From NCBI GenBank assembly GCA_025928265.1, contig JAICJV010000001.1, positions 1 to 64,000 of the forward strand: 64,000 nucleotides of DNA, written 5' to 3'. A program made the position numbers and the translations under genes. The notes under the pieces are model-generated. The model searched no databases. It had not been told where the DNA came from and worked only from the letters and a program-made list of their open reading frames with translations. This document shows, piece by piece, positions 27,361-61,826 of this stretch. This stretch comes from Thermoleophilaceae bacterium (GTDB lineage Bacteria; Actinomycetota; Thermoleophilia; Solirubrobacterales; Thermoleophilaceae). Within the stretch, counting starts at the first letter, position 1. Every line of letters starts with the position of its first letter.

Positions 27361-27384
27361 TCGCTCACTCCCCCGGTGCCAAAA

Positions 27385-27398
27385 GTATAATGTTGGAC
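27385..27398 (-). promoter_or_regulatory. Island operator motif, site a (plus strand GTATAATGTTGGAC)
   Basis: Matches GGTCNAACGTNATAC consensus on the minus strand; sits between two divergent coxG-like genes. Confidence 0.6.
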
Positions 27399-27430
27399 TT
27401 TAGCGCGTAGGGCGACTTCCGGGGAGAGAA

Positions 27431-30842: not shown

Positions 30843-32091
30843 CGCTCACCTCCGCGCCGGTGTGAAGGGTCGACTCGAGCCGGCTCTCGGCCATCAGCCG
30901 CCCGCCGTAGAACACGAGCCTGCGCGGCGGCACGAGCCGCAGCGCCTCGCGCACGGTGGGCGCGTCGATGACCACGAGGTCGGCGCGGTCGCCCGGCTCG
31001 ACGCCGTAGCCGTCGAGCCTCATCGCGCGCGCCGCGTTGTAGGTGATCATGTCGAACACCGTCTCGAGCTCGGGCAGGTAGGTGAGCTGCGCGACGTGCG
31101 CCGTGTACTGCCCCACCTCGATCTGGTCGGGCTTGCCGAACGGGTAGTACGGGTCGTTCACGTCGTCCTGGGCGGAGAGCACGTTGACGCCCGCGTCGAG
31201 CAGCTCGCGCACGCGCGTGATCCCGCGGCGGACCAGGCCGCGGTCGCCGCGCCCGTCGAGGACCAGGCTGATCTGCGTGTTCGACATGATCGAGATCCCG
31301 GCGTCGCGCACGTAGCCGATGACGCGCGCAGCATGGTTGTCGTCGTAGGCCGCGAGCGCGCCGCAGTGGCTGGCGCTGACGCGGCCCTGGTAGCCCTCCT
31401 CGATCGTGCGCACCGCGAGGTACTCGAGGCTGCGCGAGTACGGGTCGTCGGTGTCGTCCGCGAGCATGTGGACGTCCCTGCCCGTGCGCTTGGCGAGGTC
31501 GAAGCAGAAGTCGATGTGCTCCTCGACGTGGCGGTCGAGCCGCTCGTACCAGGGCAGGCCGCCGACCACGTCGCAGCCCAGGTCCATCGCCTCCTCCATG
31601 AGCTTGTCGCAGCCGGGATCGCGAATGATCGCCTCCTGCGGGAACGCGACGACCTCGAAGGTGATCATGCCCTCGAAGCGGCGCTTGAGCTCGAGCAGGC
31701 CCTGCACCGGCACGAGCCCGCCCACGGTGTCGACGTCCGCGAACCCGCGGATGGCCGTGGTGCCGTTCACGATCGCGGCCTCCACGACGGGCGCCGCGCG
31801 GTCGGCGATCTCCTCGACGGTGTAGGACCGCTTGTGGTCCCAGGTGATCTCGATCGCCTCCTGGAGCGTCTGCGACTCGTTCTGGCGCATGACGTCGCCG
31901 AGCATGCACTTGTCGAGGTGCTGGTGGGCGTTCACGAGGCCCGGCACGAGCAGCCCTCCGCCGCCGTCGTGCTCGCGGTCGGCCGAGTCGGCGATCTCGG
32001 GCTCGACTGCGGCGATGCGGTCACCGTCGACGGCGACGTCGAACGAGCCCTCGCGGCCGCGCAGGCGGACGTTACGGATGATCTGCTTCAA
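30835..32091 (-). CDS. Cytosine deaminase (CodA)-like amidohydrolase
   Basis: LLVPGLVNAHQHLDKCML, DVHMLADDTDD, VSASHCGALAAYDD, VNVLSAQDDVNDPYYPFG; TTG start overlapping the upstream stop (TTGA). Confidence 0.84.
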   Translation of the reverse strand: MKQIIRNVRLRGREGSFDVAVDGDRIAAVEPEIADSADREHDGGGGLLVPGLVNAHQHLDKCMLGDVMRQNESQTLQEAIEITWDHKRSYTVEEIADRAAPVVEAAIVNGTTAIRGFADVDTVGGLVPVQGLLELKRRFEGMITFEVVAFPQEAIIRDPGCDKLMEEAMDLGCDVVGGLPWYERLDRHVEEHIDFCFDLAKRTGRDVHMLADDTDDPYSRSLEYLAVRTIEEGYQGRVSASHCGALAAYDDNHAARVIGYVRDAGISIMSNTQISLVLDGRGDRGLVRRGITRVRELLDAGVNVLSAQDDVNDPYYPFGKPDQIEVGQYTAHVAQLTYLPELETVFDMITYNAARAMRLDGYGVEPGDRADLVVIDAPTVREALRLVPPRRLVFYGGRLMAESRLESTLHTGAEVSGG

Positions 32092-34376: not shown

Positions 34377-36667
34377 GCCTCTCCCGCCGCCAGTGCCTGG
34401 ATCGTCTCCGGCATGATCGGCAGCGCCGCGATCTCGCGCCCGGGGGCGCCGAGCGCGTCGGCCACCGCGTTCGCGACAGTCCCGGCCGTGGCGATGATGC
34501 CGCCCTCGCCGCCACCCTTGACCCCGGCCAGCGGGTCCTCGCGGCTGGTGGTGCCGAGCTCGACGAGCTGGACCTCCATTGGCGGCATCTCGGCAGCGGT
34601 CGGCATCGCGTAGTCCATGAAGCTGGTGGACAGCGGCTGGCCGTCCGGGCCGTACGAGAACTCCTCGAAGAGCGCGCCCGCGAGGCCCTGGACCGCCGCG
34701 CCCTGCACCTGGCCCTCCAGCGTCTGCGGGTTGACCGCCTTGCCGACCTCGTAGGCGATCGCGTAGCGCTCGAGCGCGACTCCGCCGGACTCGCGATCGA
34801 CGGCGACGACGCCCACGTTGGCGCCCGCGAGGATGTGCGAGCCGCCCTCGGGCTCGTAGCGGTAGTGGCCCTCCACGCCGAGCTCGCCGAGCGGCACCTC
34901 GAGCTTCCGGCGGCCCTCGCGCACGCGCGCCACGCCGCCCTCGATCTTCACGAGCTCGGGCGGCGCCTCGAAGTGGTCGGCGGCCGCCGTGCGCGCGGCC
35001 TCGTGCAGCTCGCGGATCGCGCCCGTGATCGCATACCCGCCCCACACGGTGGCCCGGCTCGAGAATGCGCCCTGGCCCTCCGGCACGGTGGCGGTGTCCT
35101 GGTAGCGCACCGCCACGCGCTCGATCGGCACCTCGAGCAGATCGGCCGCCACCTGGGAGAGCACGGTCTCCACGCCCTGCCCCACCGACGCGACGCCGAC
35201 ATGGGCGGTGAACGTGCCGTCGGCCTCGGCCACGATGCGCGCCTGCTCGAAGACCCCCGGGTTGCCCATCTCGATGAAGGCGGACACACCCAGGCCGGCA
35301 CATTCGCCGCGTCCCCGGCGGGCGTCCACCTCGGCGCGGAGCTTCTTGTAGCCCACGCGCCGGAGCAGCCCCTCGAAGACGCGCGGGAAGTCGCCCTCGT
35401 CGTAGAGCACCGGCTTGCCCGTGTCGACGTCGGGCAGGCCGCTGTCGTACGGCATGTCCTTCGGCGTCACCAGGTTGCGGCGGCGCATCTCCGCGGGGTC
35501 GAGGCCGATCTCCCGCGCGACGAGGTCGACCATCCGCTCGCGCACGAACGTCGGCTCGTACTGCCCCGGGCCGCGGTAGGTGCCGGACGGCGTCTTGTTG
35601 CTGAGCACGGTCCCCGCCTCCGCGTAGTACGCCTTCCAGCGGTAGGGGCCGGGGATGTGGTTGAGCATCAGCATCGGCAACAGGACGCTGCCGTGCGTGC
35701 GCGCGTACGCGCCCTGGTTCCACCACGCGCGCGCCCGGAACCCCAGCAGCTCGCCGTCGTCGGCGGCGCCGTACTCGACCTCCCACTCCTGCTCGCGCGA
35801 GTGGTTGAGGGCGAGCAGGTTCTCGCGGCGGTCCTCGACCCACTTCACGGGGCGGCGCAGCTCGATCGCGAGCCACGGGATCACGTAGTCCTCCGGGTAG
35901 AACTCGCCGCGGGCGCCGAAGCCCCCGCCCACGTCGCCCTCGATGCAGCGGATCCGCTCCTCCGGCATCTCGAGCATGCCCGCGAGGATCTTGCGGTTGA
36001 AGTGCTTGACCTTCGCCGCCCCCCACACCGTGAGGCCGGCCTCGTCGTCCCACTCCGCGAGCAGGCAGCGCATCTCCATCGGCACCGCGCCGTGCCGCGC
36101 GACGCGGAAGCGCTGCTTGACGCGCACCGGCGCGGCCTGGAGCAGCCCGTCGAGGTCGTCGCCGTGGCTCACCTCGACGCGGTCGATGACGTTGGTCCCG
36201 ACCTCGGGAATCAGCAGCGACGCATCCGGCTCGGCGGCGTCGAGCGCGTCGAGGACGGGGGGAAGCGGCTCGATGTCGAGCAGGACGTCGTCGGCGGCGT
36301 CCTCGGCCAGGTACGCGCTCGTGGCCACCACCACGGCCACGGGGTCGCCCACGTAGCGCACGCGATCGCGGGCGAGCGGCGCCTGGAGCGCCCGCTCGGC
36401 GTTAGGAGTCGGGAACAGGCGGATCGGCACGTCCACCTCCGGCAGGTCGGCGGCGGTGATCACCCGGACCACGCCCGGGCGCGCCTCGGCAGCGGAGGTA
36501 TCCACCCCGCGCACGATTCCGTGGCTCACGTGGCTGCGAACGACGTGGGCGTGGAGCTGGCCCGCCCGGTCGAGGTCGTCGGCGTACCTGCCGGTCCCGG
36601 TCAGCAGCCTTCGGTCCTCGACTCGCGGGACCGACCGGCCCACGTAAGCCTGCGTCCGCGTCGCCAC
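34373..36667 (-). CDS. Molybdenum hydroxylase large subunit #3
   Basis: YVGRSVPRVEDRRLLTGTGRYADD, DVGGGFGARGEFYPED, loop TYRGPGQYEPTFVRERM, AGVKGGGEGGIIATAGTVANAV. Confidence 0.93.
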   Translation of the reverse strand: MATRTQAYVGRSVPRVEDRRLLTGTGRYADDLDRAGQLHAHVVRSHVSHGIVRGVDTSAAEARPGVVRVITAADLPEVDVPIRLFPTPNAERALQAPLARDRVRYVGDPVAVVVATSAYLAEDAADDVLLDIEPLPPVLDALDAAEPDASLLIPEVGTNVIDRVEVSHGDDLDGLLQAAPVRVKQRFRVARHGAVPMEMRCLLAEWDDEAGLTVWGAAKVKHFNRKILAGMLEMPEERIRCIEGDVGGGFGARGEFYPEDYVIPWLAIELRRPVKWVEDRRENLLALNHSREQEWEVEYGAADDGELLGFRARAWWNQGAYARTHGSVLLPMLMLNHIPGPYRWKAYYAEAGTVLSNKTPSGTYRGPGQYEPTFVRERMVDLVAREIGLDPAEMRRRNLVTPKDMPYDSGLPDVDTGKPVLYDEGDFPRVFEGLLRRVGYKKLRAEVDARRGRGECAGLGVSAFIEMGNPGVFEQARIVAEADGTFTAHVGVASVGQGVETVLSQVAADLLEVPIERVAVRYQDTATVPEGQGAFSSRATVWGGYAITGAIRELHEAARTAAADHFEAPPELVKIEGGVARVREGRRKLEVPLGELGVEGHYRYEPEGGSHILAGANVGVVAVDRESGGVALERYAIAYEVGKAVNPQTLEGQVQGAAVQGLAGALFEEFSYGPDGQPLSTSFMDYAMPTAAEMPPMEVQLVELGTTSREDPLAGVKGGGEGGIIATAGTVANAVADALGAPGREIAALPIMPETIQALAAGEA

Positions 36668-36716
36668 CGGCTACCACCTCTCCTTCGCGTCCCTCAAAGG
36701 CGCCGACTTGGTGATT

Positions 36717-36731
36717 GGTCAATCGTAATAC
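36717..36731 (+). promoter_or_regulatory. Island operator motif, site c (GGTCAATCGTAATAC)
   Basis: About 50 nt upstream of the large subunit #3 start; part of palindrome CAAtCGTA-A-TACGtTTG. Confidence 0.65.
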
Positions 36732-36744
36732 GTTTGCGGAGTGC

Positions 36745-36780
36745 GGGCGCCCGAGCGCTCGGGCCTGCCCGGGCGCACGC
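36745..36780 (-). terminator. Strong hairpin region downstream of large subunit #4 (perfect 16-bp palindrome GCCCGAGCGCTCGGGC at 36749-36764)
   Basis: Palindrome in the gap after the #4 stop and before site c; no U-tract. Confidence 0.45.
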
Positions 36781-36839
36781 CCCCCGGGCGCAGTATCGAA
36801 GGCGCGCCCCGAGTGATCATCGGGAGAACGCGCCAGTCG

Positions 36840-39164
36840 CTAGCGGGTTTTCCCGTCCTCCAGCGCCCGCCGCACGACCTCCGGCGTCACCGGCAGCTCG
36901 TTCAGCTCGACGCCCAGAGCGTCCGCCACCGCGTTGGCGATCGCCGCCGGCGGACCCAGCGTGCCCCCTTCGCCCACGCCCTTGGCGCCGTTCACCGAGT
37001 CGGGCGACGGGATCTCGAGGTGCTCGAGTTCGACCGCGGGAAGGTCCGTGGCCGTCGGGACGAGGTAGTCCATCAGCGACGCCGTCACGAGCTGGCCCTG
37101 CGGGTCGTAGACGAGCGACTCGAACAGGGCGCCGCCGATGCCCTGCGCGATCGCACCGTGTGCCTGACCGTCGACGATCGCGGGATTGATGATCGTCCCG
37201 CAGTCCTCCGCCACCACGTAGCGCAGCACCCGCACGTCGCCCGTGTCGGGCGTGACCTCGACCTTGCAGACGTGCGTGGCGTAGGGATAGACCGTCCGAG
37301 GCGGGTCGAACGACGCGTTCACGTCGAAGCGCGCGGTGTCGCCGGCGGCCAGCTCGGCGATCGCGACGCCGCGGCTGGGCGAGCCGCGGACGCTCACCCG
37401 CCCGGGGACGATCTCGAGATCGCCAGCCGCCGCCTCGAGCCGGTCGGCCGCGGCCTGCAGCAACCTGGCCCGGAGCTCGTCCGCCGCCGCCGCGACTGCG
37501 CCGCCGCCGCTCACCGCGCTGCGGCTGGCGAACGTCCCCGTGCCGTCGCCGGGCCCCGCACTCGTGTCGGAGCGCGCCACGGTCACCTCCTCGACGTCCA
37601 CACCCAGGGCCGCCGCCGCGAGCTGCGCGAAGGTGGTGGCCACGCCCTGGCCGATCGCGGGCAGCGTCGTCCAGACGGTGACCCGCCCCTCGTCGTCGAG
37701 CCGCATCCAGGCGCTGTCGTGCCCCGCGATGCCCACCATGCCGCGGCCGTGGAACACCTGCGAGCCCATGCCGGTGTACTCGACGTAGCACGCGATGCCG
37801 AGCCCGAGCACGCGCCCGTCGGCGCGCGCCGCGCGCTGCTCCTCGCGAAAGCCGTCGTAGCCGATCGCGGCCAGGGCGCGCTCGAGCGCCTGTCCGTAGT
37901 CGCCGCTGTCGTAGCGCTGGTGGGAGACCGTCGTGTAGGGAAGCTCGTCGGGCGTGAGGAGGTTGCGCCGCCGGACCTCGCCGCGGTCGATCGTGAGCTC
38001 GGCTGCGATCAGGTCCATGAGCCGCTCGTGCACGAACGCCGACACGGGCAGGCCGACACCGCGGTAGGCACCCTCGGGCCCCTTGGTCGTGCAGACCGCG
38101 CGCGTGCGCGCGCGGTAGTTCTCCAGGCGGTACGGGCCGGGGATCATCGCGGGGGTGCCGAGTGCCTCGAGGATGTGGCCGTGCGGGTAGACGCCGTACG
38201 CCCCCATGTCGCACACCACGTCGGCGTCGATCGCCAGGAGACGCCCCTCGGCATCGGCGGCCGCGCGCACGCTCACCACCTGGTTGCGCGCGTGGCTCGA
38301 GGCCAGCAGGTTCTCGCTGCGGTCCTCGAGCCACTTGACGGGACGGCCGAGCTCGAGCGCGAGCCACGCCGTGAGGATCTCCTCCGGGTAGGCGTGCGCC
38401 TTCTGGCCGAACCCGCCGCCCACGTCCATCGTGGCCACGCTCACGCGCTCGCGCGGGAGGCCCAGCAGCTCGGCGACGACGCCCGCCAGCCGGTGCGGGA
38501 TCTGCGTGGAGGCCCAGACGCGCACGCCGCCGTCGCCGTCGGGCGCGGCGACCGCGCCGCGGTTCTCCATCGGCGTGGCCGAGTAGCGCGGCGAGCGGAA
38601 CGTGCGCTCCACGACGGCCGCGGCGCGGTCGAACGCAGCGTCAACGTCACCCGCCGCCAGGGTCGAGTCGAACAGCACGTTCGTGCTGTGGTCGTGCAGC
38701 GGCTCGGCGTCGACCGCCTCGAGCACGTCCACGACCGCCGGCAGCGCTTCGAGGTCGGCGTCCACGAGGTCGGCGCCGTCCTCGGCGGCGTAGGGGCTCT
38801 CACCGACGACCACCGCCAGCGGCTCGCCGACGAAGCGGACGGCCGCGCCCGCGAGCAGGGGCCGCGGCGGCGACCAGGCCTCCGGGTTCTCGATCGGCGG
38901 ATGGAGCGGGCCCAGCGGGATGTCGGCGGCGCCGAACGCCGCCACCACTCCCGGCGTCGCGCGTGCCGCGCTCAGGTCGACCCCGCGCACGCTCGCGTGC
39001 GCCAGCGCGCTGCGGAAGAATCGCGCGTGCACCATCCGGTCGAGCTCGATGTCGTCCACGAACTCGGCGCGACCGGTCAGGAGCGGCCGGTCCTCGACGC
39101 GCAGCATGCGCCGGCCGATTGGGCCCGCGTCGGACGTCGCGTTTCCCGAGCTGCGCATGCTCAT
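36840..39164 (-). CDS. Molybdenum hydroxylase large subunit #4 (likely start ATG 39158, leaderless)
   Basis: IGRRMLRVEDRPLLTGRAEFVDD, DVGGGFGQKAHAYPEE, loop AYRGVGLPVSAFVHERLMD, NGAKGVGEGGTLGPPAAIANAV. Confidence 0.92.
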   Translation of the reverse strand: MSMRSSGNATSDAGPIGRRMLRVEDRPLLTGRAEFVDDIELDRMVHARFFRSALAHASVRGVDLSAARATPGVVAAFGAADIPLGPLHPPIENPEAWSPPRPLLAGAAVRFVGEPLAVVVGESPYAAEDGADLVDADLEALPAVVDVLEAVDAEPLHDHSTNVLFDSTLAAGDVDAAFDRAAAVVERTFRSPRYSATPMENRGAVAAPDGDGGVRVWASTQIPHRLAGVVAELLGLPRERVSVATMDVGGGFGQKAHAYPEEILTAWLALELGRPVKWLEDRSENLLASSHARNQVVSVRAAADAEGRLLAIDADVVCDMGAYGVYPHGHILEALGTPAMIPGPYRLENYRARTRAVCTTKGPEGAYRGVGLPVSAFVHERLMDLIAAELTIDRGEVRRRNLLTPDELPYTTVSHQRYDSGDYGQALERALAAIGYDGFREEQRAARADGRVLGLGIACYVEYTGMGSQVFHGRGMVGIAGHDSAWMRLDDEGRVTVWTTLPAIGQGVATTFAQLAAAALGVDVEEVTVARSDTSAGPGDGTGTFASRSAVSGGGAVAAAADELRARLLQAAADRLEAAAGDLEIVPGRVSVRGSPSRGVAIAELAAGDTARFDVNASFDPPRTVYPYATHVCKVEVTPDTGDVRVLRYVVAEDCGTIINPAIVDGQAHGAIAQGIGGALFESLVYDPQGQLVTASLMDYLVPTATDLPAVELEHLEIPSPDSVNGAKGVGEGGTLGPPAAIANAVADALGVELNELPVTPEVVRRALEDGKTR

Positions 39165-39166
39165 AG

Positions 39167-39181
39167 GTATAATGTCGGACC
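39167..39181 (-). promoter_or_regulatory. Island operator motif, site b (plus strand GTATAATGTCGGACC)
   Basis: Between divergent large subunits #4 and #5; near-identical to site a. Confidence 0.65.
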
Positions 39182-39284
39182 TTACTCCGCCCGTCGAGGC
39201 TCAGCGCAGATTCCCACACCGCGCCGAAAAGATCACGAGACGCCCCCACCTGCGGACACGCTTCCCCGGCAGATCGGGCGCCGC

Positions 39285-41546
39285 GTGCCGCGAGTCGAGG
39301 ACGACGCACTCCTTCGCGGCGCCGCGCGCTTCCTCGACGACCTGACGCCGGACGGGACGCTGCACCTGGCGTTCGCCCGCAGTTCGTACGCGCACGCGCA
39401 GATAGACGGCGTCGACGTGAGCGGGGCGGCCGCCATGCCCGGCGTGGAGCTCGCGTTCGGGCCGGACGACCTCGGCGGCGTCCCGCCGCTCGTGCCCGAG
39501 CTTGCGCGACCCGGCGCGGCGCGCGTGGAGCGGCCGGTGCTGGCGGGCCGGCGCGCGCGCTTCGTGGGTGAGCCGCTGGCCGCGGCGGTCGCGACCACGC
39601 CGTACCTCGCCGAGGATGCCGCCGAGGCGATCACCGTCGACTACCGGCCGCTTGCGGCGATCGCGACCATCGACGACGCGCTCGACGACGCGCTGCCGGC
39701 GCTGCACGGCGAGGACAACGTCATCTTCCGCGAAGAGCGCGAGGAGGGCGACGTGGACGCCGCGTGCGCCGAGGCCGCGGTGGTGGTGGAGCGCACGTTC
39801 CGCAACCCGCGCTACAGCGCCGCCCCGATGGAGAATCGCGGCGTGCTGGGCGTCCCCGACGGCGACGGGCTCGTGCTGTGGTCGGGGACCCAGATCCCGC
39901 ACATCCTCGAGGAGACGCTCGCCGCGCTGCTCGGGCTCAAGGGCCGCGTGCGCGTGCGCTGCCCCGACATCGGCGGTGGCTTCGGCCAGAAGGCGCACGT
40001 CTTCCCCGAGGAGATCGCCGTCGCCTGGGCCGCGCTGCGGCTCGGCCGGCCCGTGAAGTGGGTCGAGGACCGGCGCGAGAACCTGATCGGCTCTGCGCAC
40101 GCCCGCGAGCAGCGCGTGCGCGCACGCGCCGCGGCCGACCGCGACGGCCGGCTGCTCGCGCTGGACGCCGACGTCTACTGCGACGTGGGCGCGTACGGGA
40201 TCTTCCCGTGGGGCCAGCTGCTCGAGTCGCTCGGCACGCCGGCCATCCTGCCCGGCCCGTATGACCTGCGCAACTACCGCTACTCGACCCACTCGCTCGC
40301 CACCAACAAGGCGCCGCAGGGCGCCTACCGCGGCGTCGGGCTGCCGGTGGCGGCCTTCGTCCACGAGCGGATGATGGACGTGCTGGCCGCCGAGCTCGGC
40401 ATCGACCGCGCGGAGATCCGGCGCCGCAACTACGTGCCGCGCGAGAGCTTCCCCTACGGGACCGTGAGCGGCCTGCGCTACGACAGCGGCAACTACGCAG
40501 GCGCGCTCGACGCCGCGCTCGAGGCGGTCGGCTACGACGGCTTCGCAGCCGAGCGCGAACGCGCGAGGAGCGAGGGCCGGCGACTCGGCATCGGGATCGC
40601 CTCCTACGTGGAATGGACCGGCACGAACTCCGAGACCTACCGCCTGCGCGGGATGACGAACGTCCGCGGCTTCGACGCCGGCCGCGTCGCCGTGAACGCC
40701 GACGGCAGCGTCTCGGTGTGGACGAGCTGTCCCGCGATCGGCCAGGGCGTGGCCACCACCTTCGCGCAGGTCGTCGCCGAGCATCTCGGCGTCCCGTTCG
40801 AGACCGTGCGGACCCAGCTCGTGGACACGGCGGAGTCGCCACCGGGCAGCGGCAGCTTCGCGAGCCGCAGCGCGATCAGTGCGGGCGGCGCGCTGATCTC
40901 CGTCTCCACGCAGCTGCGCGAACGCATCCTCGCCACCGCGGCAGGCGTCCTCGAGGCCAATCCGCGCGACGTGACGATCGAGGACGGCCGCGTGGGCGTG
41001 CGCGGATCGCCGGCAGCATCGCTGTCGCTGGCGGAGGTGGCTGCCGCCGCCGAACCCGGGCACCTCGACATCGGCGAGCCCTACGACCCGCCCGAGACGG
41101 CCTACCCGTACGCGACCCACGCGTGCGTGGTCGAGGTCGACGACGACACGGGCGACGTGCGCATCGTGCGCTACGTCGTGGCCGAGGACTGCGGCCCCGA
41201 GATCAACCCGATCGTGGTCGACGGCCAGGTTCACGGCGCCACGGCCCAGGGCATCGGCGGCGCGCTGTATGAGGCGCTGCGCTACGGCGACGACGGCCAG
41301 GCCGTCACCGCGAGCTTCATGGACTACCTGGTCCCGACCGCGTGCGAGATGCCGGCGATGACCGTGCGCCACCTGGAGACACCCGCGCCCGACGTGCGCG
41401 GCGGCGTGAAGGGAGTCGGCGAGGGCGGGACGCTGGCACCACCCGGCGCGCTGGCGAACGCCGTGTCCGATGCGCTCGGCACCGAGATCAACGAGCTGCC
41501 GATCCAGCCCGGGCTGGTGCTCGGCGCGCGCCGCGGTCGGCGCTAG
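39285..41546 (+). CDS. Molybdenum hydroxylase large subunit #5; true start unclear, GTG 39285 is the first canonical in-frame start after the promoter
   Basis: RRVPRVEDDALLRGAARFLDD, DIGGGFGQKAHVFPEE, loop AYRGVGLPVAAFVHERMMD, GGVKGVGEGGTLAPPGALANAV. Confidence 0.85.
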   Translation: MPRVEDDALLRGAARFLDDLTPDGTLHLAFARSSYAHAQIDGVDVSGAAAMPGVELAFGPDDLGGVPPLVPELARPGAARVERPVLAGRRARFVGEPLAAAVATTPYLAEDAAEAITVDYRPLAAIATIDDALDDALPALHGEDNVIFREEREEGDVDAACAEAAVVVERTFRNPRYSAAPMENRGVLGVPDGDGLVLWSGTQIPHILEETLAALLGLKGRVRVRCPDIGGGFGQKAHVFPEEIAVAWAALRLGRPVKWVEDRRENLIGSAHAREQRVRARAAADRDGRLLALDADVYCDVGAYGIFPWGQLLESLGTPAILPGPYDLRNYRYSTHSLATNKAPQGAYRGVGLPVAAFVHERMMDVLAAELGIDRAEIRRRNYVPRESFPYGTVSGLRYDSGNYAGALDAALEAVGYDGFAAERERARSEGRRLGIGIASYVEWTGTNSETYRLRGMTNVRGFDAGRVAVNADGSVSVWTSCPAIGQGVATTFAQVVAEHLGVPFETVRTQLVDTAESPPGSGSFASRSAISAGGALISVSTQLRERILATAAGVLEANPRDVTIEDGRVGVRGSPAASLSLAEVAAAAEPGHLDIGEPYDPPETAYPYATHACVVEVDDDTGDVRIVRYVVAEDCGPEINPIVVDGQVHGATAQGIGGALYEALRYGDDGQAVTASFMDYLVPTACEMPAMTVRHLETPAPDVRGGVKGVGEGGTLAPPGALANAVSDALGTEINELPIQPGLVLGARRGRR

Positions 41547-41573
41547 TGCCGTGGTTCCTTGATTCGCGCGCAC

Positions 41574-41610
41574 CTTCTCGGTGTCTGGACGCGCCCGGCC
41601 ACTCGAGAAG
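41574..41610. terminator. Possible bidirectional terminator between convergent large subunits #5 and #6
   Basis: CTTCTCG (41574-41580) / CGAGAAG (41604-41610) arms with partly paired interior. Confidence 0.35.
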
Positions 41611-41637
41611 CTGAAGCCGAATTAATGACTCACGACA

Positions 41638-43998
41638 CTAGGCGCCGGCCAGCGCGCCGATCACCCACGAGGGCGTGATCGGCGTGTGGTTCGCCGACAC
41701 GCCGAGCGGCCGCAGCGCGTCGTTCACGGCCGCGACGATCGCGGCGGGCGAGTTCACGGCGCCGCCCTCGCCCATCCCCTTGAACCCGCCCGGCACGTAG
41801 GGGCTCGGCGACTCGAGGTGGCGTACCTCCACGGGCGGCAGCTCCGCCGCGGTGGGCACCAGGTAGTCCATGAAGCTGCCGGCCACGAGGTTGCCAGCGT
41901 CGTCGTAGGCGAGGTGCTCGAAGAGCGCGCCGCCGATGCCCTGGGCCACCCCGCCCGTCACCTGGCCCTCGACGATCATCGGGTTGACGACGGTTCCGCA
42001 GTCCTCGGACACGACGTAGCGCAACACGTGCACCGCCCCGGTCTCGGCATCCAGCTCGACCAGCGCGGCGTGCGCCGAGCTGGCGAACGTGCCGGGGTCG
42101 GGCGGCATGAACCGCCGCGTGACCTCGAGGCCCGGCTCCTCGCCGTCGGGAAGCAGGTCGGGCTCGAACGCGGCGCGGCGCGCCACTTCGCGGAAGCCCA
42201 CGCCGCGCGACGGAGTGCCGCGGACGCTGACGCGGCCGCCCGACAGCTCGAGGTCGCCCGCGTCCGCCTCCAGCATGTCGGCCGCCAGGCGCAGCACCTT
42301 CGCGCGGATGTCCCGCGCAGCCATGATCGTGGCGCCACCCGAGCAGATCGTGCTGCGGCTGGCCCAGGTCCCCAGGCCGTACGGCACGACCGACGTGTCG
42401 CCCCAGACCACCTGCACGTCGGCCGGATCGATGCCGAGCTCGTCGGCGGCGATCTGCGCGAACGTGGTCTCGTGGCCCTGGCCGTGGTTGTGCAGCCCCA
42501 CCGCCACGCGCACGCGCCCGTCCGGCTCGACGCGCATCGACGCGCTGTCGTAGCCGAGCGTGATCTCGAGCTTGCGTGAGGCGAGCGCCTGCGGCCCGTA
42601 CGCGGACTGCTCGATCGCCAGCGCCACGCCCACTCCCCGGTGCACGCCGCGGGCGCGCAGCTCCTCGTTCTCGGCGCGCGCCCGCTTCCAGTCGATCGCC
42701 TCCTCGAGCAGGTCGAGCATGCGGGCGTAGTCGCCGCTCTCGAGCCGCAGCCCGACCGCGGTCGTGTGCGGGAACTCGCGGATCAGGTTGCGCCGCCGGA
42801 TCTCGATCGGGTCGATCCCGAGCCGCGCCGCCAGCTCGTCCATCGCGCGCTCCATGCCCATGCACGCGATCACCCGCCCGACGCCCCGGTACGGGCCCAT
42901 CGGAGCTTTGTTCGTGACCACCGCGCGCACGCGGCGCGCATACGCGGGGATGTCGTACGGCCCGGTCACGTTCTCCGACGCCTGGCCCGAGTCGAGCGAC
43001 GCGCTGTACGGCCACGGCGCATAGGCGCCGTTCGCCGCCGCGATCTCGCTTGCCACCGCGTGCACGCGCCCGTCGGCATCGGCGGCCACGCGGATGCGGT
43101 GGAGCTGCTCGCGCCCGTGCGTGGTGGCGTGCAGGTCCTCGCCGCGGTCGCAGATCCAGCGGACCGGGCGCCGCACCAGCCGCGAGGCGGCGGCGATCGC
43201 GACGTCCTCGGGATAGAGGACGACCTTCGAGCCGAAGCCGCCGCCCATGTCGGGCGACACCACGCGCACCTTCGTCTCGGCCAGGCCCAGGTGCTTGGCA
43301 AGGCCGGTACGCGCGATGTGCGGAACCTGCGTCGAGAGCCACGCGGTGAGCTCCCCGGTGGCCTGGTCGAAGCTGGCCACCGCCACGCGCGTCTCCATCG
43401 CCACCGCGCAGTAGCGCTGCTGGCGGATCTCCAGCTCCACGATCTCGTGCGCGCCCGCGAACGCGCCGTCCACGTCGCCGGTCGTGGTCTCGAACTTGTT
43501 GAAGAGGTTGTCCGGCACCTCGTCGTGCACGACGGGCGCGCCGTCGGCCAGCGCGTCGTCGATCGACAGGACCGGCGGCAGGTCGCGGTAGTGCACGTCC
43601 ACGAGCTGCGCGGCGTCCTCCGCGCGGTAGCGGCTGTCCGCCACGACCAGCGCAACCGCCTCACCGGCGAGCCGCACCTTTCCCGTCGCGAGCACCGGCA
43701 TGTCGCACTCGGAGTAGCCCGGTCCTCCGTTTCGCGCGCGGATCGGCGACGCGATGCCCTCGAGGTCCGAGGCCACGATCACCGCCACCACGCCCGGCAT
43801 CGCGCGCGCGGCCTCCACGTCGATCGCCTCGATCTCCGCGTGCGCGCGTGTGCTGCGCGCGAACGCGGCCTCGAGCAGGCCGGCGGGGCGGACGTCGCTC
43901 ACGTAGCGCCCGCGACCTGTGAGCAGGCGCGCATCCTCGCTGCGCAGCACGCGAGCGCCCAGCGCTCGCGGCGCCGCGGTGCCCGGTGCGTGCTGCAT
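41638..43998 (-). CDS. Molybdenum hydroxylase large subunit #6, coupled to an ABC importer
   Basis: LGARVLRSEDARLLTGRGRYVSD, DMGGGFGSKVVLYPED, loop PYRGVGRVIACMGMERAMD, GGFKGMGEGGAVNSPAAIVAAVND; ATGA overlap with the permease gene. Confidence 0.92.
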   Translation of the reverse strand: MQHAPGTAAPRALGARVLRSEDARLLTGRGRYVSDVRPAGLLEAAFARSTRAHAEIEAIDVEAARAMPGVVAVIVASDLEGIASPIRARNGGPGYSECDMPVLATGKVRLAGEAVALVVADSRYRAEDAAQLVDVHYRDLPPVLSIDDALADGAPVVHDEVPDNLFNKFETTTGDVDGAFAGAHEIVELEIRQQRYCAVAMETRVAVASFDQATGELTAWLSTQVPHIARTGLAKHLGLAETKVRVVSPDMGGGFGSKVVLYPEDVAIAAASRLVRRPVRWICDRGEDLHATTHGREQLHRIRVAADADGRVHAVASEIAAANGAYAPWPYSASLDSGQASENVTGPYDIPAYARRVRAVVTNKAPMGPYRGVGRVIACMGMERAMDELAARLGIDPIEIRRRNLIREFPHTTAVGLRLESGDYARMLDLLEEAIDWKRARAENEELRARGVHRGVGVALAIEQSAYGPQALASRKLEITLGYDSASMRVEPDGRVRVAVGLHNHGQGHETTFAQIAADELGIDPADVQVVWGDTSVVPYGLGTWASRSTICSGGATIMAARDIRAKVLRLAADMLEADAGDLELSGGRVSVRGTPSRGVGFREVARRAAFEPDLLPDGEEPGLEVTRRFMPPDPGTFASSAHAALVELDAETGAVHVLRYVVSEDCGTVVNPMIVEGQVTGGVAQGIGGALFEHLAYDDAGNLVAGSFMDYLVPTAAELPPVEVRHLESPSPYVPGGFKGMGEGGAVNSPAAIVAAVNDALRPLGVSANHTPITPSWVIGALAGA

Positions 43999-52208: not shown

Positions 52209-52223
52209 GGTCGTACGTTATAC
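52209..52223 (+). promoter_or_regulatory. Island operator motif, site d (GGTCGTACGTTATAC), overlapping the amidase stop codon
   Basis: Upstream of the SDR operon on the minus strand; TAA stop of the amidase (52218-52220) lies inside it. Confidence 0.6.
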
Positions 52224-55942: not shown

Positions 55943-55957
55943 GCTGTATCGTAATAC
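55943..55957 (+). promoter_or_regulatory. Island operator motif, site e (GCTGTATCGTAATAC), with overlapping divergent -10 elements
   Basis: TATCGT (55947-55952, plus) and TACGAT (55953-55948, minus) each 7 nt from a start codon. Confidence 0.65.
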
Positions 55958-55959
55958 GA

Positions 55960-56847
55960 ATGTCCTACGCGACGGCCGACGACGGTGTCCGCCTTTACCG
56001 GGAGGAGAGTGGGTCGGGCATACCGATCCTCTTCATCCACGAGTTCGCCGGCGACCACCGCAGCTTCGACCCGCAGGTCCGGCACTTCCAGGACAGCTAC
56101 CGCTGCATCGTGTACGACGCGCGCGGCTACACGCCGTCGGACGTGCCGGACGACGAGTCGGCCTACTCGCAGGAGCGTGCGGTCGCGGACGCGGTCACCG
56201 TTCTCGACGCCGCCGGAGTCGACCGCGCGCACGTGGTCGGCGTCTCGATGGGCGGCTTCTGCGCTCTGCACCTCGCCCTGCGCCACCCCGACCGCCTCCT
56301 GTCCGCGGTGGTCGCCGGCGCCGGCTACGGCGCTCAGCCCGAGCGCCAGGAGAGCTTCCGCAGCGAGTGCGAGTCGATCGCGGCGGCGTTTCGCGACGAG
56401 GGCACGCCCGCCGTGGCGGAGCGCTACGCGGTGGGACCGGCGCGTGTCCAGTTCCAGAACAAGAACCGGCCCGGCTGGGAGACGTTCGCCGCCCAGCTTG
56501 CCGAGCACGACGCGCGCGGCGCCGAGCTCACCATGCTGGGCGTCCAGCGGCTGCGCCCGTCGCTCTACGACCTGCGCGACGAGCTGGCGGCGATGACGGT
56601 GCCCATGCTGATCGTGGCCGGCGACGAGGACGAGGGCTGCCTAGAGCCCGACCTCATGCTCAAGCGGACGATCCCCTCGGCGGGGCTCGCCATCCTCCCG
56701 CGCACAGGGCACACCTGCAACCTCGAGGAGCCGGACGTCTTCAACGGCGCCGTCGAACGCTTTCTGCGCCGCGTCGAGGACGGCAGCTGGGGGCTGCGCG
56801 ACCCGCGCTCGCTCAGCACGAGCGTCACGGGGATGGACGAGGACTGA
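55960..56847 (+). CDS. Alpha/beta-fold hydrolase
   Basis: IPILFIHEFAGDHRSFDPQ, CIVYDARGYTPSD, VVGVSMGGFCALHLAL, LPRTGHTCNLEEP. Confidence 0.9.
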   Translation: MSYATADDGVRLYREESGSGIPILFIHEFAGDHRSFDPQVRHFQDSYRCIVYDARGYTPSDVPDDESAYSQERAVADAVTVLDAAGVDRAHVVGVSMGGFCALHLALRHPDRLLSAVVAGAGYGAQPERQESFRSECESIAAAFRDEGTPAVAERYAVGPARVQFQNKNRPGWETFAAQLAEHDARGAELTMLGVQRLRPSLYDLRDELAAMTVPMLIVAGDEDEGCLEPDLMLKRTIPSAGLAILPRTGHTCNLEEPDVFNGAVERFLRRVEDGSWGLRDPRSLSTSVTGMDED

Positions 56848-56862: not shown

Positions 56863-58131
56863 TCAGGCGACGCCGCAGACCTGCATGGCGATCGCCGCAT
56901 ATGCGCGCGCGGCCGTGGTGAGGTCGTCGATCTCCATCGCGAAGTTGCCGCCGCCGACGCTGGCCCCGGGCCCGTAGACGACGGTCGGGATGCCCGCCTC
57001 GATGAAGACGTTGCTGTCGCGCCACATGCTGGTGATCGCCTTGATCGGCCGCTCCGGCGTGCCCCCGATCACCTGCTCGTGCGCTGCCTCCACGTCACGC
57101 ACGAGCGGCTCCACGCCGGTCGCCTCGTAGCCGCGGCGGTAGGCGATCGGCTCGACGGTCACCGGGATCCCGGTGGGCGCGATGGCGGCCTCCAGCTCGC
57201 GCTGGACGCTGCGCGGGTCCTGCTTCGGCGTGATGCGCGCGTCCACGTAGAGCTGGCAGATCGACGGCGTCTTGGTGATCTTGTACGGCACCCCGCTGCG
57301 CACCGCGTTGACGCTCACCTTCGGCACGACGGTGCCACCCTCGCATTCGTAGGTGTGCTCGCGCTCGTACTCGTAGGCCCATTCCTCGATCGCCTGGATC
57401 ACCGCGGTGGCGCGCACGATGGCGTTGGGTGAGTCGGCGATGCCCGTCGGGCGCGGGAGGTAGGGCGTGTACAGCGGCGGCTCGTCGCCGTGCACGCCGA
57501 TCTTGAAGAACGCCTTGCCCGCCTCGACCCAGCAGAGCGCGAAGCTCGTGCCCTCGGCCACCACCGCCCAGTCCGCGGTCACGCCGCGGTTCACGACGTA
57601 GCGCGCGCCGGCCTCCTTCGCGATGTACTGCGGCGGCTGGAACTCGTCGACCGGCTCGACGCCGATCTCGCCGACCACCATCGTCATGACGACGTCGCCG
57701 CGCAGGCGCACGCCCGAGCGCTTGAGCGCGCGGCAGGCCGTCATCCAGGTGGCCATCACGCCCTTGTTGTTGACGATGCCGTTGCCGATCAGCCGCCGCC
57801 CCTCGCGCCAGGCGGTGTGGTGCTCGGGCGCCGCGGCCCGGGGCGTGGTGAGCGTCTCCTCCCGGGCGATCGTCGTATCGAGGTGGCTGTTGAACATGAG
57901 GCTCTGCCCGCCACCCGCGCCGGGCATCCGCGCGACCACGTTGGCCCGCTCCGGGAAGAGGGCGAGGCGGCGAGGCTCGAAGCCCTCCGCCGCGCACCAC
58001 TCGTAGACGTGGTCCGAGGCGGCGCCCTCGAGACCGGTCGGGCTGTCCAGGTTGCCGAGCGCGAGAGCCAGCTCGACGAGCTCGTCCTCGTCGATCTCCG
58101 CGAAGACGCGTTCCAGCGCGTCGACGCTCAA
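56863..58131 (-). CDS. M20-family metallohydrolase (423 aa), paralog of 28120-29388
   Basis: LMFNSHLDTTIAREE, NGIVNNKGVMATWM, VVGEIGVEPVDEF, TSMWRDSNVFIEAGIPTVVYGP; TTG start overlapping the FeS gene stop. Confidence 0.87.
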   Translation of the reverse strand: MSVDALERVFAEIDEDELVELALALGNLDSPTGLEGAASDHVYEWCAAEGFEPRRLALFPERANVVARMPGAGGGQSLMFNSHLDTTIAREETLTTPRAAAPEHHTAWREGRRLIGNGIVNNKGVMATWMTACRALKRSGVRLRGDVVMTMVVGEIGVEPVDEFQPPQYIAKEAGARYVVNRGVTADWAVVAEGTSFALCWVEAGKAFFKIGVHGDEPPLYTPYLPRPTGIADSPNAIVRATAVIQAIEEWAYEYEREHTYECEGGTVVPKVSVNAVRSGVPYKITKTPSICQLYVDARITPKQDPRSVQRELEAAIAPTGIPVTVEPIAYRRGYEATGVEPLVRDVEAAHEQVIGGTPERPIKAITSMWRDSNVFIEAGIPTVVYGPGASVGGGNFAMEIDDLTTAARAYAAIAMQVCGVA

Positions 58132-58619
58132 GCGGCGTCCTCGGCGCCCGCCATCCGGCGCGCCGCCAGCTGCGTGGCGGTCACGATGTTCTGATAGCCG
58201 GTGCAGCGGCAGAGGTTGCCGGCGAGCGCCTCGCGCACCTGGGTGTCGTCGAAGTCGCGCGCGTCCGCGAGCAGCGGCTCGAGCGACATCAGGAAGCCGG
58301 GCGTGCAGAAGCCGCACTGAAGCGCGTGCTCCTCGTGGAACGCCTGCTGGAGCGGATGGAGCGTGCCGTCCTCGGCGGCCAGGTCCTCCACGGTCCGCAG
58401 CGAGTGCCCCTCGGCCTGGACGGCCAGCATCAGGCACGAGCGCACCGGCTCGCCGTCCATCTGCACGGTGCACGCGCCGCAGACGCCGTGCTCGCAGCCC
58501 ACGTGGGTGCCGGTCAGGCCCGCCTCGTGCCGGATGAAGTCCGACAGGAGCAGCCGCGGCTCGATCTCGCGGTCGTATGTGGTCCCGTTGATCTCGATGC
58601 TCACGCGCCGCTCGGTCAT
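58128..58619 (-). CDS. Molybdenum hydroxylase [2Fe-2S] small subunit
   Basis: VGCEHGVCGACTVQMDGEPVRSC; LQCGFCTPGFLMS...NLCRCTGYQNIV. Confidence 0.95.
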   Translation of the reverse strand: MTERRVSIEINGTTYDREIEPRLLLSDFIRHEAGLTGTHVGCEHGVCGACTVQMDGEPVRSCLMLAVQAEGHSLRTVEDLAAEDGTLHPLQQAFHEEHALQCGFCTPGFLMSLEPLLADARDFDDTQVREALAGNLCRCTGYQNIVTATQLAARRMAGAEDAA

Positions 58620-59473
58620 GCCGCCGCCTTCACGATCGCGCGGCGGACCATTGCCTCGATCAGCCGCTTCCTGTACGAAGAGGAGCCGTGGATGTCGCCC
58701 GTCGGCTCGATGTCGCGGGTCGCCACGCGCGCGGCCTCGCGCGCGCTGTCCTCGTCGATCTTCTGGCCCGCGAGCGCCTGCTCGGCCTCGCGCGCGCGCA
58801 GCGGCGTATCGGCGGCGCCCAGGAGCGCGATGCGCGCCTCGCGGCATGCACCGTCGCCGTTTCGCATGACCAGGACGGCCGCGCCGCCGAGCGCGAAGTC
58901 GCCGTGACGGCGCGAGTACTCCTCGAACGCGTGCCCGTGGTTCGCCGGCAGCTCGGGCACCTCCACCTCCGTCAGGAGCTCGTCGGGCTCGAGTGACGTG
59001 GTGAGGTGCGTGACGAAGAAGTCGCGTGCGTCGATCACGCGCTCGCCGCGCTTCGAGCGCGCCTTGAAGCGTGCGTCGAGGCAGGCGAACGCCACCGGCA
59101 GCTCGGCGGCGGGATCGGCGTGCGCGGCCGAGCCGCCCACCGTCCCGCGGTTGCGGATCTGCTGGTGCGCCACCAGCTTGAGCGCGTCGCCCAGAAGGCC
59201 GCACGACTCCTGCGCGACCGGCGACTGCTCGAGCCGCGCCTGGCGGCAGAGCGCGCCGATCTGGAGCTTGCCCTCGCGGCGGCGCAGGTAGGCGAGCTCC
59301 GCTACGCGGTTCACGTCCACGAGCACCGCGGGCTGGGCGAGGCGGAAGTTCAGGAGCGGCACGAGGCTCTGGCCGCCGGCCAGCACCTTCCCGTCGTCGG
59401 CGCAGTCGGCCAGGACGGCGACCGCCTCGTCGAGCGAGCGCGGGTCCTTGTAGTCAAAGGGCGGCGGCTTCAA
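58616..59473 (-). CDS. Molybdenum hydroxylase FAD-binding medium subunit
   Basis: FDYKDPRSLDEAVAVL, VLAGGQSLVPLLNFRLAQP, NRGTVGGSAAHADPAAELP; TTG 59473 with SD AGGAGGAG. Confidence 0.93.
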   Translation of the reverse strand: MKPPPFDYKDPRSLDEAVAVLADCADDGKVLAGGQSLVPLLNFRLAQPAVLVDVNRVAELAYLRRREGKLQIGALCRQARLEQSPVAQESCGLLGDALKLVAHQQIRNRGTVGGSAAHADPAAELPVAFACLDARFKARSKRGERVIDARDFFVTHLTTSLEPDELLTEVEVPELPANHGHAFEEYSRRHGDFALGGAAVLVMRNGDGACREARIALLGAADTPLRAREAEQALAGQKIDEDSAREAARVATRDIEPTGDIHGSSSYRKRLIEAMVRRAIVKAAA

Positions 59474-59498: not shown

Positions 59499-59521
59499 GC
59501 GCAATAGTAATACATTAGACC
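59499..59521. promoter_or_regulatory. Island operator motif, site f (matches on both strands)
   Basis: Plus GCGCAATAGTAATAC (59499-59513) and minus GGTCTAATGTATTAC (59521-59507). Confidence 0.55.
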
Positions 59522-59566
59522 AAGGCACAGCAATGCGTGGTCTGCGCACGGGCGAGGCGGTTGCAT

Positions 59567-59581
59567 GGTCGAACGTCATAC
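59567..59581 (+). promoter_or_regulatory. Island operator motif, site g (GGTCGAACGTCATAC) upstream of the regulator gene
   Basis: Directly upstream of -10-like TAGCAT (59585-59590), 7 nt before ATG 59598. Confidence 0.6.
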
Positions 59582-59597: not shown

Positions 59598-61826
59598 ATG
59601 GGCATGGGGCCCGTACTCGATCTCGACGAGCGGATCGAGCGCCGCTACGTGGGACTCGCACGCCTTGCGCGCGGTGTGTCCTCCGCTGCGGACTTCCGCC
59701 AGCTCGCCGCCGCCATATCGGCCGCGCTGGAGGATCCGCTCGACGACGCCCTCAGCCCGTCCGTGCGGCTGTGGGTGATCACGTCCGACGGGGTCGAGGA
59801 GGTGGCCCGCCACTCGCCGGACCGCGAGCTGCCGAACCTGCATCAGCGCGAGCTCCAGCGCGCGGCGGTGCGTCCCGGCCCGAGCGAGACCGGGAGCGGC
59901 AGCCTGCTCGCGGGGCTCCACGCGAGCGGCATGAGCCTCGGCGTGCTGGAGGTGGGCGAGGAGGCAGGGGACCTCGAGCTGCTGTCGGATGCCGCGCCGA
60001 TCGTGGCCTGCGGAGTCGGGCTGCTCGCCGGGCAGGGCGTGAGCGAGGTGCTGCCCGCCCCGGTCGCCGTCCAGGGCGCGAGCGACGTGGCGGCGCTGAT
60101 GGCCACGTTCGCCGCCGAGGCGAAGCACATGCTCGACCACGACCGGCTGAGCGCCTACCTCCTGACGGCCGACGGGCGCGCGTTCGAGCGCTTCGCCGTG
60201 GCCACATCGCCGATCGTGCCGGGCGAGGGCGTGATCATCCCGTTCGAGGACGTGGGGCTGCGCCATGTCGTGGTCACCAACCGCCCGATCGTGTCGGCCG
60301 ACCTCGCCGGCGACCCGCGGATCGTGGGGCGCGAGGACCGCGTGATCGCGCGCGCGGGGTTCCACGGGCTGATCAGCGTTCCGCTGCGGCTCGAGGGCCG
60401 CCCCTTCGGGGTGCTCAACTTCGTGAGCCGCACGCCGGGCTTCTATGCCGACCACGACCTGCCGATCGCGCAACAGATCGCCGACCAGGTCGCGGCGTTC
60501 ATCGGCAACCTGCGGGCGCAGGACCGGATGCGCACACTGATCCGCCACGAGGCCGCCGAGGCGGAGCGGGCGCGCGTCGCGCGGGAGCTCTACCACGCTG
60601 TCGCGCAGACGCTGCCGGCGATCGAGGCGGCGGCGCAGTCGCTCGAGCGGCGCGTGGCCGCTACCGACGACGTGGCGCGCGACGAGGCGCGGCGCGTGCG
60701 CGAGCTGGTCCGGCTCGAGCTGGCCGACGTCCGGCGCGCCGTGGCGGATCTCGCGCCGCGCGGCCTCGAGTCGCAGTCGCTGGCGGACGCGCTCGAACGG
60801 GCCACCGCCGCTTTCGGCGACGGGCCGCCGCGCGCCCACCTGGTCGTGGAGGGCGACGCCTCCGGCCTCTCGTGCGCGGTGCGGCGCGCGACGTACCGGA
60901 TCTTCCAGGAGGCCGTGACCAACGCGCGCGTTCACGCGCACGCGAGCTCCATCACCGTGGCGCTTCGCGTCGGGCGCGACCTCGAGCTCACGGTGAGCGA
61001 CGACGGCGACGGCTTCGAACCGGCCGACGCGAAGCGTGCCGGCGGCACCGGGATCGGCTTCATGCGCGAGCGCGCGCAGGCGCTCGGCGGGACGCTCGAC
61101 ATCGAGAGTGCGAGCGGGCGCGGCACCACGGTCTGCTTCGAGCTGCTCGACGCACGGGACCCCGCCGACGAGGCCGTGCCACTCGACGAGCCGCCCGCCG
61201 CGGCGCCGGCGAAGCTGCGCGTCTTCGTCACCGAGCCGCACGGCCTCACGCGCGCGGGGATCGTCGCGCTGCTGGAACGCGCCGACGGGATCCGCGTGGT
61301 GGGCGACGCCGCGGGCGCCGAGGCCACGCGCGCCCAGGTGCGGCGCGTCCATCCCGACGTGGTGCTGCTCGACGGTCACCTCGGCGAGGCGGAGGTGGAC
61401 CGCACGCTCGAGGAGATCAAGTCGGCGCTCCCGGCCTGCGCGGTGCTCGTGCTCGCCGACTACGACACCGGCCGCGACGGCGACCTCGTGGCCCACGGCG
61501 CGAGCGGCGTGGTGCCCAAGGCGATGACCGGCGACGAGCTGGCCGAGACGGTTCGCGCGGTGGCGCGCGGCGACAAGGTCGCGCGCTTCGGCCCCGGCGA
61601 CCAGGCGGCCGGCACGGGCCTGAGTGCGCGCGAGCGAGCAGTTCTCGCGCTGATGACCGCAGGCCGCACGAACGCCGAGATCGGCGTGACGCTGTTCCTC
61701 GCCACGAAGACCGTCGAGCGCCAGGTGGCCACGATCATCCGCAAGCTGGGGGCGCGCAACCGCGCCCACGCGGGCGCCCTCGCGGTGGCCCGCCGCCTCG
61801 TGGACCCCTCCGAGCTCGACGACTGA
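59598..61826 (+). CDS. Single-chain GAF / histidine-kinase-like / receiver / LuxR-HTH regulator
   Basis: GAF (FHGLISVPLRLEGRPFGVLNFVSR), HisKA_3-like ERARVARELYHAVAQTL, HATPase YRIFQEAVTNARVHAHA...DDGDGFEP...GTGIGFMRERAQALGG, REC-like LRVFVTEPHGLTRAGI...PDVVLLDGHLG, LuxR LSARERAVLALMTAGRTNAEIGVTLFLATKTVERQVATIIRKL. Confidence 0.9.
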   Translation: MGMGPVLDLDERIERRYVGLARLARGVSSAADFRQLAAAISAALEDPLDDALSPSVRLWVITSDGVEEVARHSPDRELPNLHQRELQRAAVRPGPSETGSGSLLAGLHASGMSLGVLEVGEEAGDLELLSDAAPIVACGVGLLAGQGVSEVLPAPVAVQGASDVAALMATFAAEAKHMLDHDRLSAYLLTADGRAFERFAVATSPIVPGEGVIIPFEDVGLRHVVVTNRPIVSADLAGDPRIVGREDRVIARAGFHGLISVPLRLEGRPFGVLNFVSRTPGFYADHDLPIAQQIADQVAAFIGNLRAQDRMRTLIRHEAAEAERARVARELYHAVAQTLPAIEAAAQSLERRVAATDDVARDEARRVRELVRLELADVRRAVADLAPRGLESQSLADALERATAAFGDGPPRAHLVVEGDASGLSCAVRRATYRIFQEAVTNARVHAHASSITVALRVGRDLELTVSDDGDGFEPADAKRAGGTGIGFMRERAQALGGTLDIESASGRGTTVCFELLDARDPADEAVPLDEPPAAAPAKLRVFVTEPHGLTRAGIVALLERADGIRVVGDAAGAEATRAQVRRVHPDVVLLDGHLGEAEVDRTLEEIKSALPACAVLVLADYDTGRDGDLVAHGASGVVPKAMTGDELAETVRAVARGDKVARFGPGDQAAGTGLSARERAVLALMTAGRTNAEIGVTLFLATKTVERQVATIIRKLGARNRAHAGALAVARRLVDPSELDD

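Follow-up and report, generated by a model that had tools for sequence, protein, structure and literature searches.

A fused GAF-kinase-receiver-LuxR protein of a Thermoleophilaceae bacterium has lost phosphotransfer residues and probably signals without a phosphorelay

The stretch of DNA analysed here (the window) comprises 64,000 nucleotides of a Thermoleophilaceae genome (G000), a MAG that is 73% complete and 3.0 Mb in size. At 59598-61826 on the plus strand, a single uninterrupted open reading frame encodes six domains, from a GAF-like domain through to a LuxR-type helix-turn-helix (HTH). There is an alternative in-frame ATG upstream at 59565; the start at 59598, which gives 742 aa, agrees with the start of the ortholog in genome G087. 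Residue numbers such as Tyr332 refer to this 742-aa reading, and Pfam profile coordinates refer to a 753-aa reading. Genes beyond the listed open reading frames were called with a simple codon-usage script. The main features are as follows.

56863..58131, minus strand: M20-family amidohydrolase/peptidase, member of the FAD/FeS operon
58128..58619, minus strand: 2Fe-2S subunit (CoxS type) of a molybdenum hydroxylase
58616..59473, minus strand: FAD subunit (CoxM type) of a molybdenum hydroxylase, divergent neighbour of the fused regulator
59598..61826, plus strand: fused regulator, 742 aa, with GAF-like, GAF, HisKA_3/DHp, HATPase_c, REC and LuxR-type HTH domains
59616..60032, plus strand: N-terminal degenerate GAF-like domain, aa 7-145, placed by modelled fold order
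60090..60512, plus strand: GAF2, aa 165-305, the best-conserved sensory part (Pfam and ortholog identities)
60531..60782, plus strand: HisKA_3/DHp helices, aa 312-395 (Pfam and model)
60591..60596, plus strand: Tyr332-His333, replacing the His-Asp of the H-box (alignment)
60885..61145, plus strand: HATPase_c/CA domain (Pfam, sequence motifs and modelled fold)
61221..61553, plus strand: REC domain, with DD2 Pro547 at 61236-61238 and Asp592 at 61371-61373
61620..61772, plus strand: LuxR/NarL-type HTH (Pfam and ortholog identities)

The original prediction, made from the sequence alone, described a soluble polypeptide that holds a whole two-component system in one chain, and proposed a profile search of its domains. 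Pfam matched GAF (176-311, 2e-17), HisKA_3 (334-400, 7e-9), HATPase_c (441-527, 8e-14) and GerE (686-736, 2e-13). As expected for a HisKA_3 (HPK7) kinase, HisKA_3 (36.5 bits) and HATPase_c (52.5 bits) both exceeded their cut-offs; Response_reg (553-663) reached 30.1 bits, 0.1 below its gathering cut-off of 30.2. Residues 7-145 had no Pfam match, and the first 150 residues or so were modelled as a second GAF-like fold. The structure model had a mean pLDDT of 70.6 and a pTM of 0.31 and was built on a four-sequence alignment, so we trusted only its domain folds. In the model the receiver is predicted to adopt a normal (beta-alpha)5 fold, and the predicted CA domain fits the VraS CA domain with ADP at 2.1 A. 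The best matches among solved structures were DesK/DesR, VraS/LiaS, VraR/LiaR and NarX/NarL. When solved structures were searched for hints of a GAF ligand, matches were weak (a PDE GAF at E 3e-4) and not informative. The intact frame, the Pfam matches and the model thus bear out a two-component system in one chain, and a hydropathy scan that found no clear transmembrane segment (maximum 19-residue value 1.65) agrees with a soluble protein.

The gene is indeed divergent from the FAD/FeS operon (58616-59473 and 58128-58619), as had been predicted. The surrounding region holds several XDH/CoxL-type large subunits, a BMP-type ABC transporter and amidohydrolases. Six XDH/CoxL-type large-subunit genes lie at 24347-43950, and the pair at 58128-59473 is the sole FAD/FeS pair that we saw. 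Elsewhere in the window, 15615-17813 encodes a protein with two GAF matches, a PAS domain and a SpoIIE phosphatase domain. Beyond the right-hand end of the window, G000 carries an operon that we call hyuA-hyuB-RidA-BKACE, names that reflect our reading of the sequences and not profile matches.

The H-box of the fused regulator is ARELYHAVAQTL. Alignment places Tyr332 at the position of the phospho-His and His333 at that of the following Asp, which upholds the predicted replacement of His by Tyr with His as the next residue. A HisKA_3 kinase needs a phosphorylatable His and an acidic residue; the pair is Tyr-His here and Tyr-Gln in the closest ortholog (genome G099). The original prediction would have been undermined by a canonical His elsewhere in the protein that aligned to the H-box. 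No His column in DHp is common to the fused regulator and G099, which rules out such a residue elsewhere in the DHp helix. A sequencing error is ruled out as well, since G099 has the same Tyr. Among related loci, 51 of 53 distinct H-box contexts read HD and the two exceptions are the fused regulator (YH) and G099 (YQ); all alignable H-boxes of unfused related kinases (38/38) read HD. The ATP-site motifs are kept (N-box NARVHA, DDGDGF and GTGIGF). Gln337, which we take to be the phosphatase Gln position of HisKA_3 kinases, is retained here and in G099. In a published census, His was lost in 0.3% of HisKA_3 domains (56/16,025) and the receiver Asp in 2.0% (PMC12632262).

The receiver is also incomplete. 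The five residues that define a canonical receiver (PF00072; DD1, DD2, D, T/S and K) read E-P-D-A-K: Glu546, Pro547, Asp592, Ala620 at the Thr position, and Lys641. This agrees with the prediction that Asp and Lys remain and that the usual Thr position has changed. Without DD2 and Thr, the metal site and the coupling of the receiver are broken. With at least one of the five residues missing and the fold kept, the domain is a pseudo-receiver as defined in PMC12632262. It is not an aspartate-less receiver, as Asp592 is present; the equivalent residue in G099 is Ser. One unfused relative (L068) lacks the receiver Lys in the alignment.

Whole-genome searches found family relatives in 3 of 232 genomes of the order, including this one, and in 4 of 399 genomes sampled from the class. 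The four family members found in total all come from whole genomes or MAGs; a scan of named genomes returned remote relatives only. The G099 protein (50% identity) has the H-box RDLYQAV, with the Tyr common to both proteins, and its receiver has also lost Asp (Ser) and Lys (Leu). The G087 protein (47%) has the H-box RELHDTL and so keeps His, unlike the two Tyr-bearing orthologs; its receiver reads E-S-D-S-K. DD2 is thus lost in G000, G099 and G087. The relative in G292 (36%) lacks the N-terminal domain and an alignable H-box; its receiver is seemingly complete, with Asp and Lys kept, although its T position falls in a gap of the alignment used here. As the His is replaced, the fold retained and the replacement conserved in two orthologs at 50% identity, the kinase half fits the description of a pseudo-histidine kinase.

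Conservation is uneven along the chain. Identities of the fused regulator to G099, G087 and G292 are 74, 70 and 55% for GAF2 and 66, 73 and 53% for the HTH, compared with 48, 40 and 17% for DHp, 41, 52 and 36% for CA, and 41, 35 and 27% for REC. Among the three full-length orthologs, GAF2 is 69-74% and the HTH 59-73% identical, whereas DHp, CA and REC reach only 28-52%. This pattern suggests that input and output are under constraint and phosphotransfer chemistry is not. Thus, selection has probably acted on the sensor and the DNA-binding output, and the transmitter that links them probably must keep its fold but not its chemistry.

In the tree, the two Tyr proteins are sisters (95/81) and G087 falls outside. 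By parsimony, Tyr would have arisen once and then been kept over a deep divergence, much as in DivL. Together with the G087 protein, which keeps His without DD2, this grouping points to a likely order of loss: DD2 first, then His to Tyr, then further receiver residues.

In each of the three genomes with a full-length ortholog, a hyuA-hyuB-RidA-BKACE operon is located no more than about 25 kb from the regulator gene. The G099 regulator adjoins an XDH-type large subunit, with the hyu operon about 23 kb away on the same contig, and that of G087 sits beside the genes for RidA and BKACE, some 7 kb from hyuA. Close hyuA homologs occur in only 6 of the 232 genomes of the order, and these include all three with a full-length ortholog. 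An association of the fused regulator with a hyu-type catabolic module is therefore likely. These data also bear on whether the fused protein is now functionless and on its way to becoming a pseudogene. In favour of decay are the loss of many catalytic residues and the rarity of homologs (3/232). Against it, all four divergent lineages have an open frame, GAF2 and the HTH remain strongly conserved although the proteins as a whole have diverged by about 50%, and the gene has stayed linked to catabolic genes. We consider such decay very improbable; that the gene is already a pseudogene is ruled out by the open frame in four lineages and the Tyr shared with G099.

Could phosphate still flow through the protein? 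One way would be non-canonical autophosphorylation on Tyr332 or His333, followed by transfer to Asp592. The retained ATP-site motifs and a phosphorylatable H-box residue in both close orthologs are in keeping with this. However, His333 is Gln in G099, and the acidic residue that normally follows the His is missing too. In addition, DivL of Caulobacter, which has a Tyr (Tyr550) in place of the phospho-His and keeps its DHp and CA folds, has neither autokinase nor phosphatase activity, and its Y550H variant regained no autonomous activity (PMC4211667). We regard this route as the least probable of the explanations considered here. The likeness to DivL has limits: DivL belongs to the PAS-domain proteins, detects DivK~P in trans and has neither a fused receiver nor a DNA-binding domain, whereas the fused regulator is of the HisKA_3 type with its own GAF, REC and HTH domains.

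A second way would be that the kinase half is dead and Asp592 receives its phosphate from small phosphodonors or another histidine kinase; the protein would then be an orphan response regulator to which a sensory part is attached. In its favour, this copy has Asp592 and Lys641, Asp and Lys are also present in G087 and G292, and the genome has several separate kinase/NarL-type pairs. Nevertheless, G000, G099 and G087 all lack DD2, which binds the metal directly; Thr is Ala here; and G099, the closest relative, does without Asp and Lys despite its conserved GAF2 and HTH. We think this explanation unlikely. The original prediction that signalling may proceed without a canonical phosphorelay gains support instead, because the His and receiver losses recur in G099, where the receiver Asp and Lys have gone too.

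The architecture itself is not unique. G553 (L082) and G326 (L112) encode canonical single-chain GAF-HisKA_3-HATPase-REC-LuxR proteins in which H-box and receiver are complete. They share with the fused regulator the one-frame architecture and the same group of the receiver/HTH tree, but differ in their HD H-box, complete receiver, different GAF and identity of about 34%. Another single-chain GAF-HK-REC-LuxR protein, L092 (G661), keeps the H-box His and has a degenerate receiver. The receiver/HTH tree places L082, L112 and L092 with the G000 family (91/85), a grouping left unresolved in the kinase tree. In most of the other relatives found, a stop separates kinase from regulator, which are thus adjacent genes. 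The canonical fused relatives and the broken receiver of L092 suggest that fusion came first and that residues were lost afterwards inside fused chains, probably in two or more lineages. The sample comprises only seven fused proteins, four of them from one clade. For that reason, and because it took unfused losses as 0 of 40 although L068 lacks the Lys, we give no weight to a Fisher test comparing losses between fused and unfused relatives.

Further known systems resemble parts of this protein. Bacteroides HTCS also combine kinase, receiver and DNA-binding domain in one chain and control catabolic genes (PMC11253607), an architecture that the fused regulator shares. HTCS, though, have a membrane sensor and are phosphorylated, whereas the fused regulator has a soluble GAF sensor, no clear membrane segment and a LuxR-type output, and has lost phosphotransfer residues. 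Pseudo-receivers and atypical receivers (BldM, WhiI and aspartate-less ones) likewise place a receiver without active-site residues before a DNA-binding domain; regulators of the BldM/WhiI type stand alone without a kinase, whereas here the pseudo-receiver is covalently joined to a pseudokinase and a GAF sensor. DesK/DesR, VraS/LiaS with VraR/LiaR, and NarX/NarL have the same HisKA_3, HATPase and NarL-type domains but are two proteins with a canonical HD H-box and a complete receiver.

We also considered which DNA sites the protein may act on. Seven intergenic sites (a-g) match RGTCNNAYNTWWTAC with up to two mismatches; they were located with a slightly looser pattern. These sites (motif 1) and a regulator gene of the GntR/UTRA family are as follows.

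27385..27399, minus strand: site a
36717..36731, plus strand: site b
39167..39181, minus strand: site c
52209..52223, plus strand: site d
55951..55965, minus strand: site e, two mismatches
59507..59521, minus strand: site f, GGTCTAATGTATTAC, in the promoter of the divergent FAD/FeS operon
59567..59581, plus strand: site g, GGTCGAACGTCATAC, 17 bp before the ATG of the fused regulator, a probable GntR/UTRA operator
C45:76375-77103 (L080:16376-17104), minus strand: GntR/UTRA regulator, 12 kb beyond the window

As motif 1 was derived from this region, only its specificity counts as evidence. Genome-wide (3.0 Mb), this region holds 6 of the 9 matches with up to one mismatch and all four perfect ones; a reversed control pattern gave none. 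Sites a-g are real and cluster-specific.

The original prediction placed site g in the promoter of the fused gene, which is correct, and made the fused protein the prime candidate regulator of the motif. Besides site g in its own promoter and site f in the divergent one, this candidacy could draw on its being the sole DNA-binding regulator recognised between 27 and 63 kb, and on motif-like sites in the promoter of the G099 regulator (11.4 bits, p 0.005). It did not hold up. Across genomes, the motif tracks GntR/UTRA genes and not the fused regulator. Scored with a matrix from the seven sites against 200 shuffles each, the sequences in front of GntR/UTRA genes gave 23.2 bits in G141, 20.9 in G083, 12.0 and 14.3 in G049, 11.5 in G092 and 9.9 in G053, each above all 200 shuffles. 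In these five genomes we found no fused regulator, meaning no match at E 1e-40 to 1e-60 with limited candidates scored per genome. Conversely, the fused-regulator promoters of G087 (-1.1) and G292 (0.1) score at background level, and a GntR/UTRA gene lies on the same contig as the sites in G000, although its own promoter scores weakly (10.4, p 0.015). GntR homologs without a motif-1 site are mostly more distant ones. The GntR/UTRA gene of G099 (L171:749-1464, C66) is split by a frame change, which reflects decay or an assembly error. On balance, the occurrence of motif 1 before GntR/UTRA genes suggests that it is a GntR/UTRA operator; we rejected it as the operator of the fused protein, for which we now give it little chance. 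As for site g, its position suggests that the gene of the fused regulator is probably a target of GntR.

In the G087 and G292 loci, several promoters carry a second, palindromic motif, GCGGGWWWWCCCGC (motif 2). It recurs at many promoters across hydantoinase/XDH catabolic loci, with positions at 36843 and 49233 in the window, at C45:65822 and 67440, and in L078, L079, L172 and L208. Regulation by the fused protein through motif 2 is conceivable: 4 of the 16 matches in the G087 genome (up to one mismatch) cluster within 18 kb at the regulator locus, the regulator's own promoter in G087 carries the motif, and the G000, G099 and G292 loci have matches too. Against this, the hyuA promoters of G049 (perfect) and G053 (one mismatch) match although no fused regulator was found there, the fused gene's own promoter in G000 lacks a site, and control counts are high in G292. 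As judged from these sequence matches, the fused regulator is one candidate cognate protein for motif 2, and a doubtful one.

We propose a model in which the fused regulator is a phosphotransfer-independent, ligand-gated, single-chain regulator that descends from a canonical fused GAF-kinase-receiver-LuxR ancestor. We consider this reading probable. The order of the domains, the lost residues and the conservation pattern are observed, whereas we infer that a ligand gates the protein, that it binds DNA and in which direction it regulates. The first part of the model concerns the input: GAF2 would bind a small molecule that the linked hydroxylase/hydantoinase-type module probably consumes or forms as an intermediate. 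Next, the dimeric helices of DHp and the ATP-binding CA domains would transmit a conformational change, possibly gated by ATP. Finally, the LuxR HTH may be released or brought to dimerise by the pseudo-receiver, which would serve as a hinge.

The known proteins form a graded series: G553 and G326 are canonical, DD2 is lost in G087, His is also lost in G000, and Asp and Lys are lost as well in G099. We suggest, tentatively and with less confidence than the model itself, that fusion makes phosphotransfer dispensable, so that a two-component system has here been caught becoming a one-component regulator, with the pseudokinase as an ATP-gated or mechanical transmitter to the pseudo-receiver.

How pseudo-receivers switch on and off has been described as unknown (PMC12632262). 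Here, a pseudo-receiver is tied to its own pseudokinase and a conserved sensor, which puts input and output in one soluble, directly testable protein, and the orthologs supply a natural series of intermediates in which to trace the point at which phosphate could be dispensed with. The analysis also corrects how regulation of a large catabolic cluster is mapped, as motif 1 most likely belongs to the GntR/UTRA regulator.
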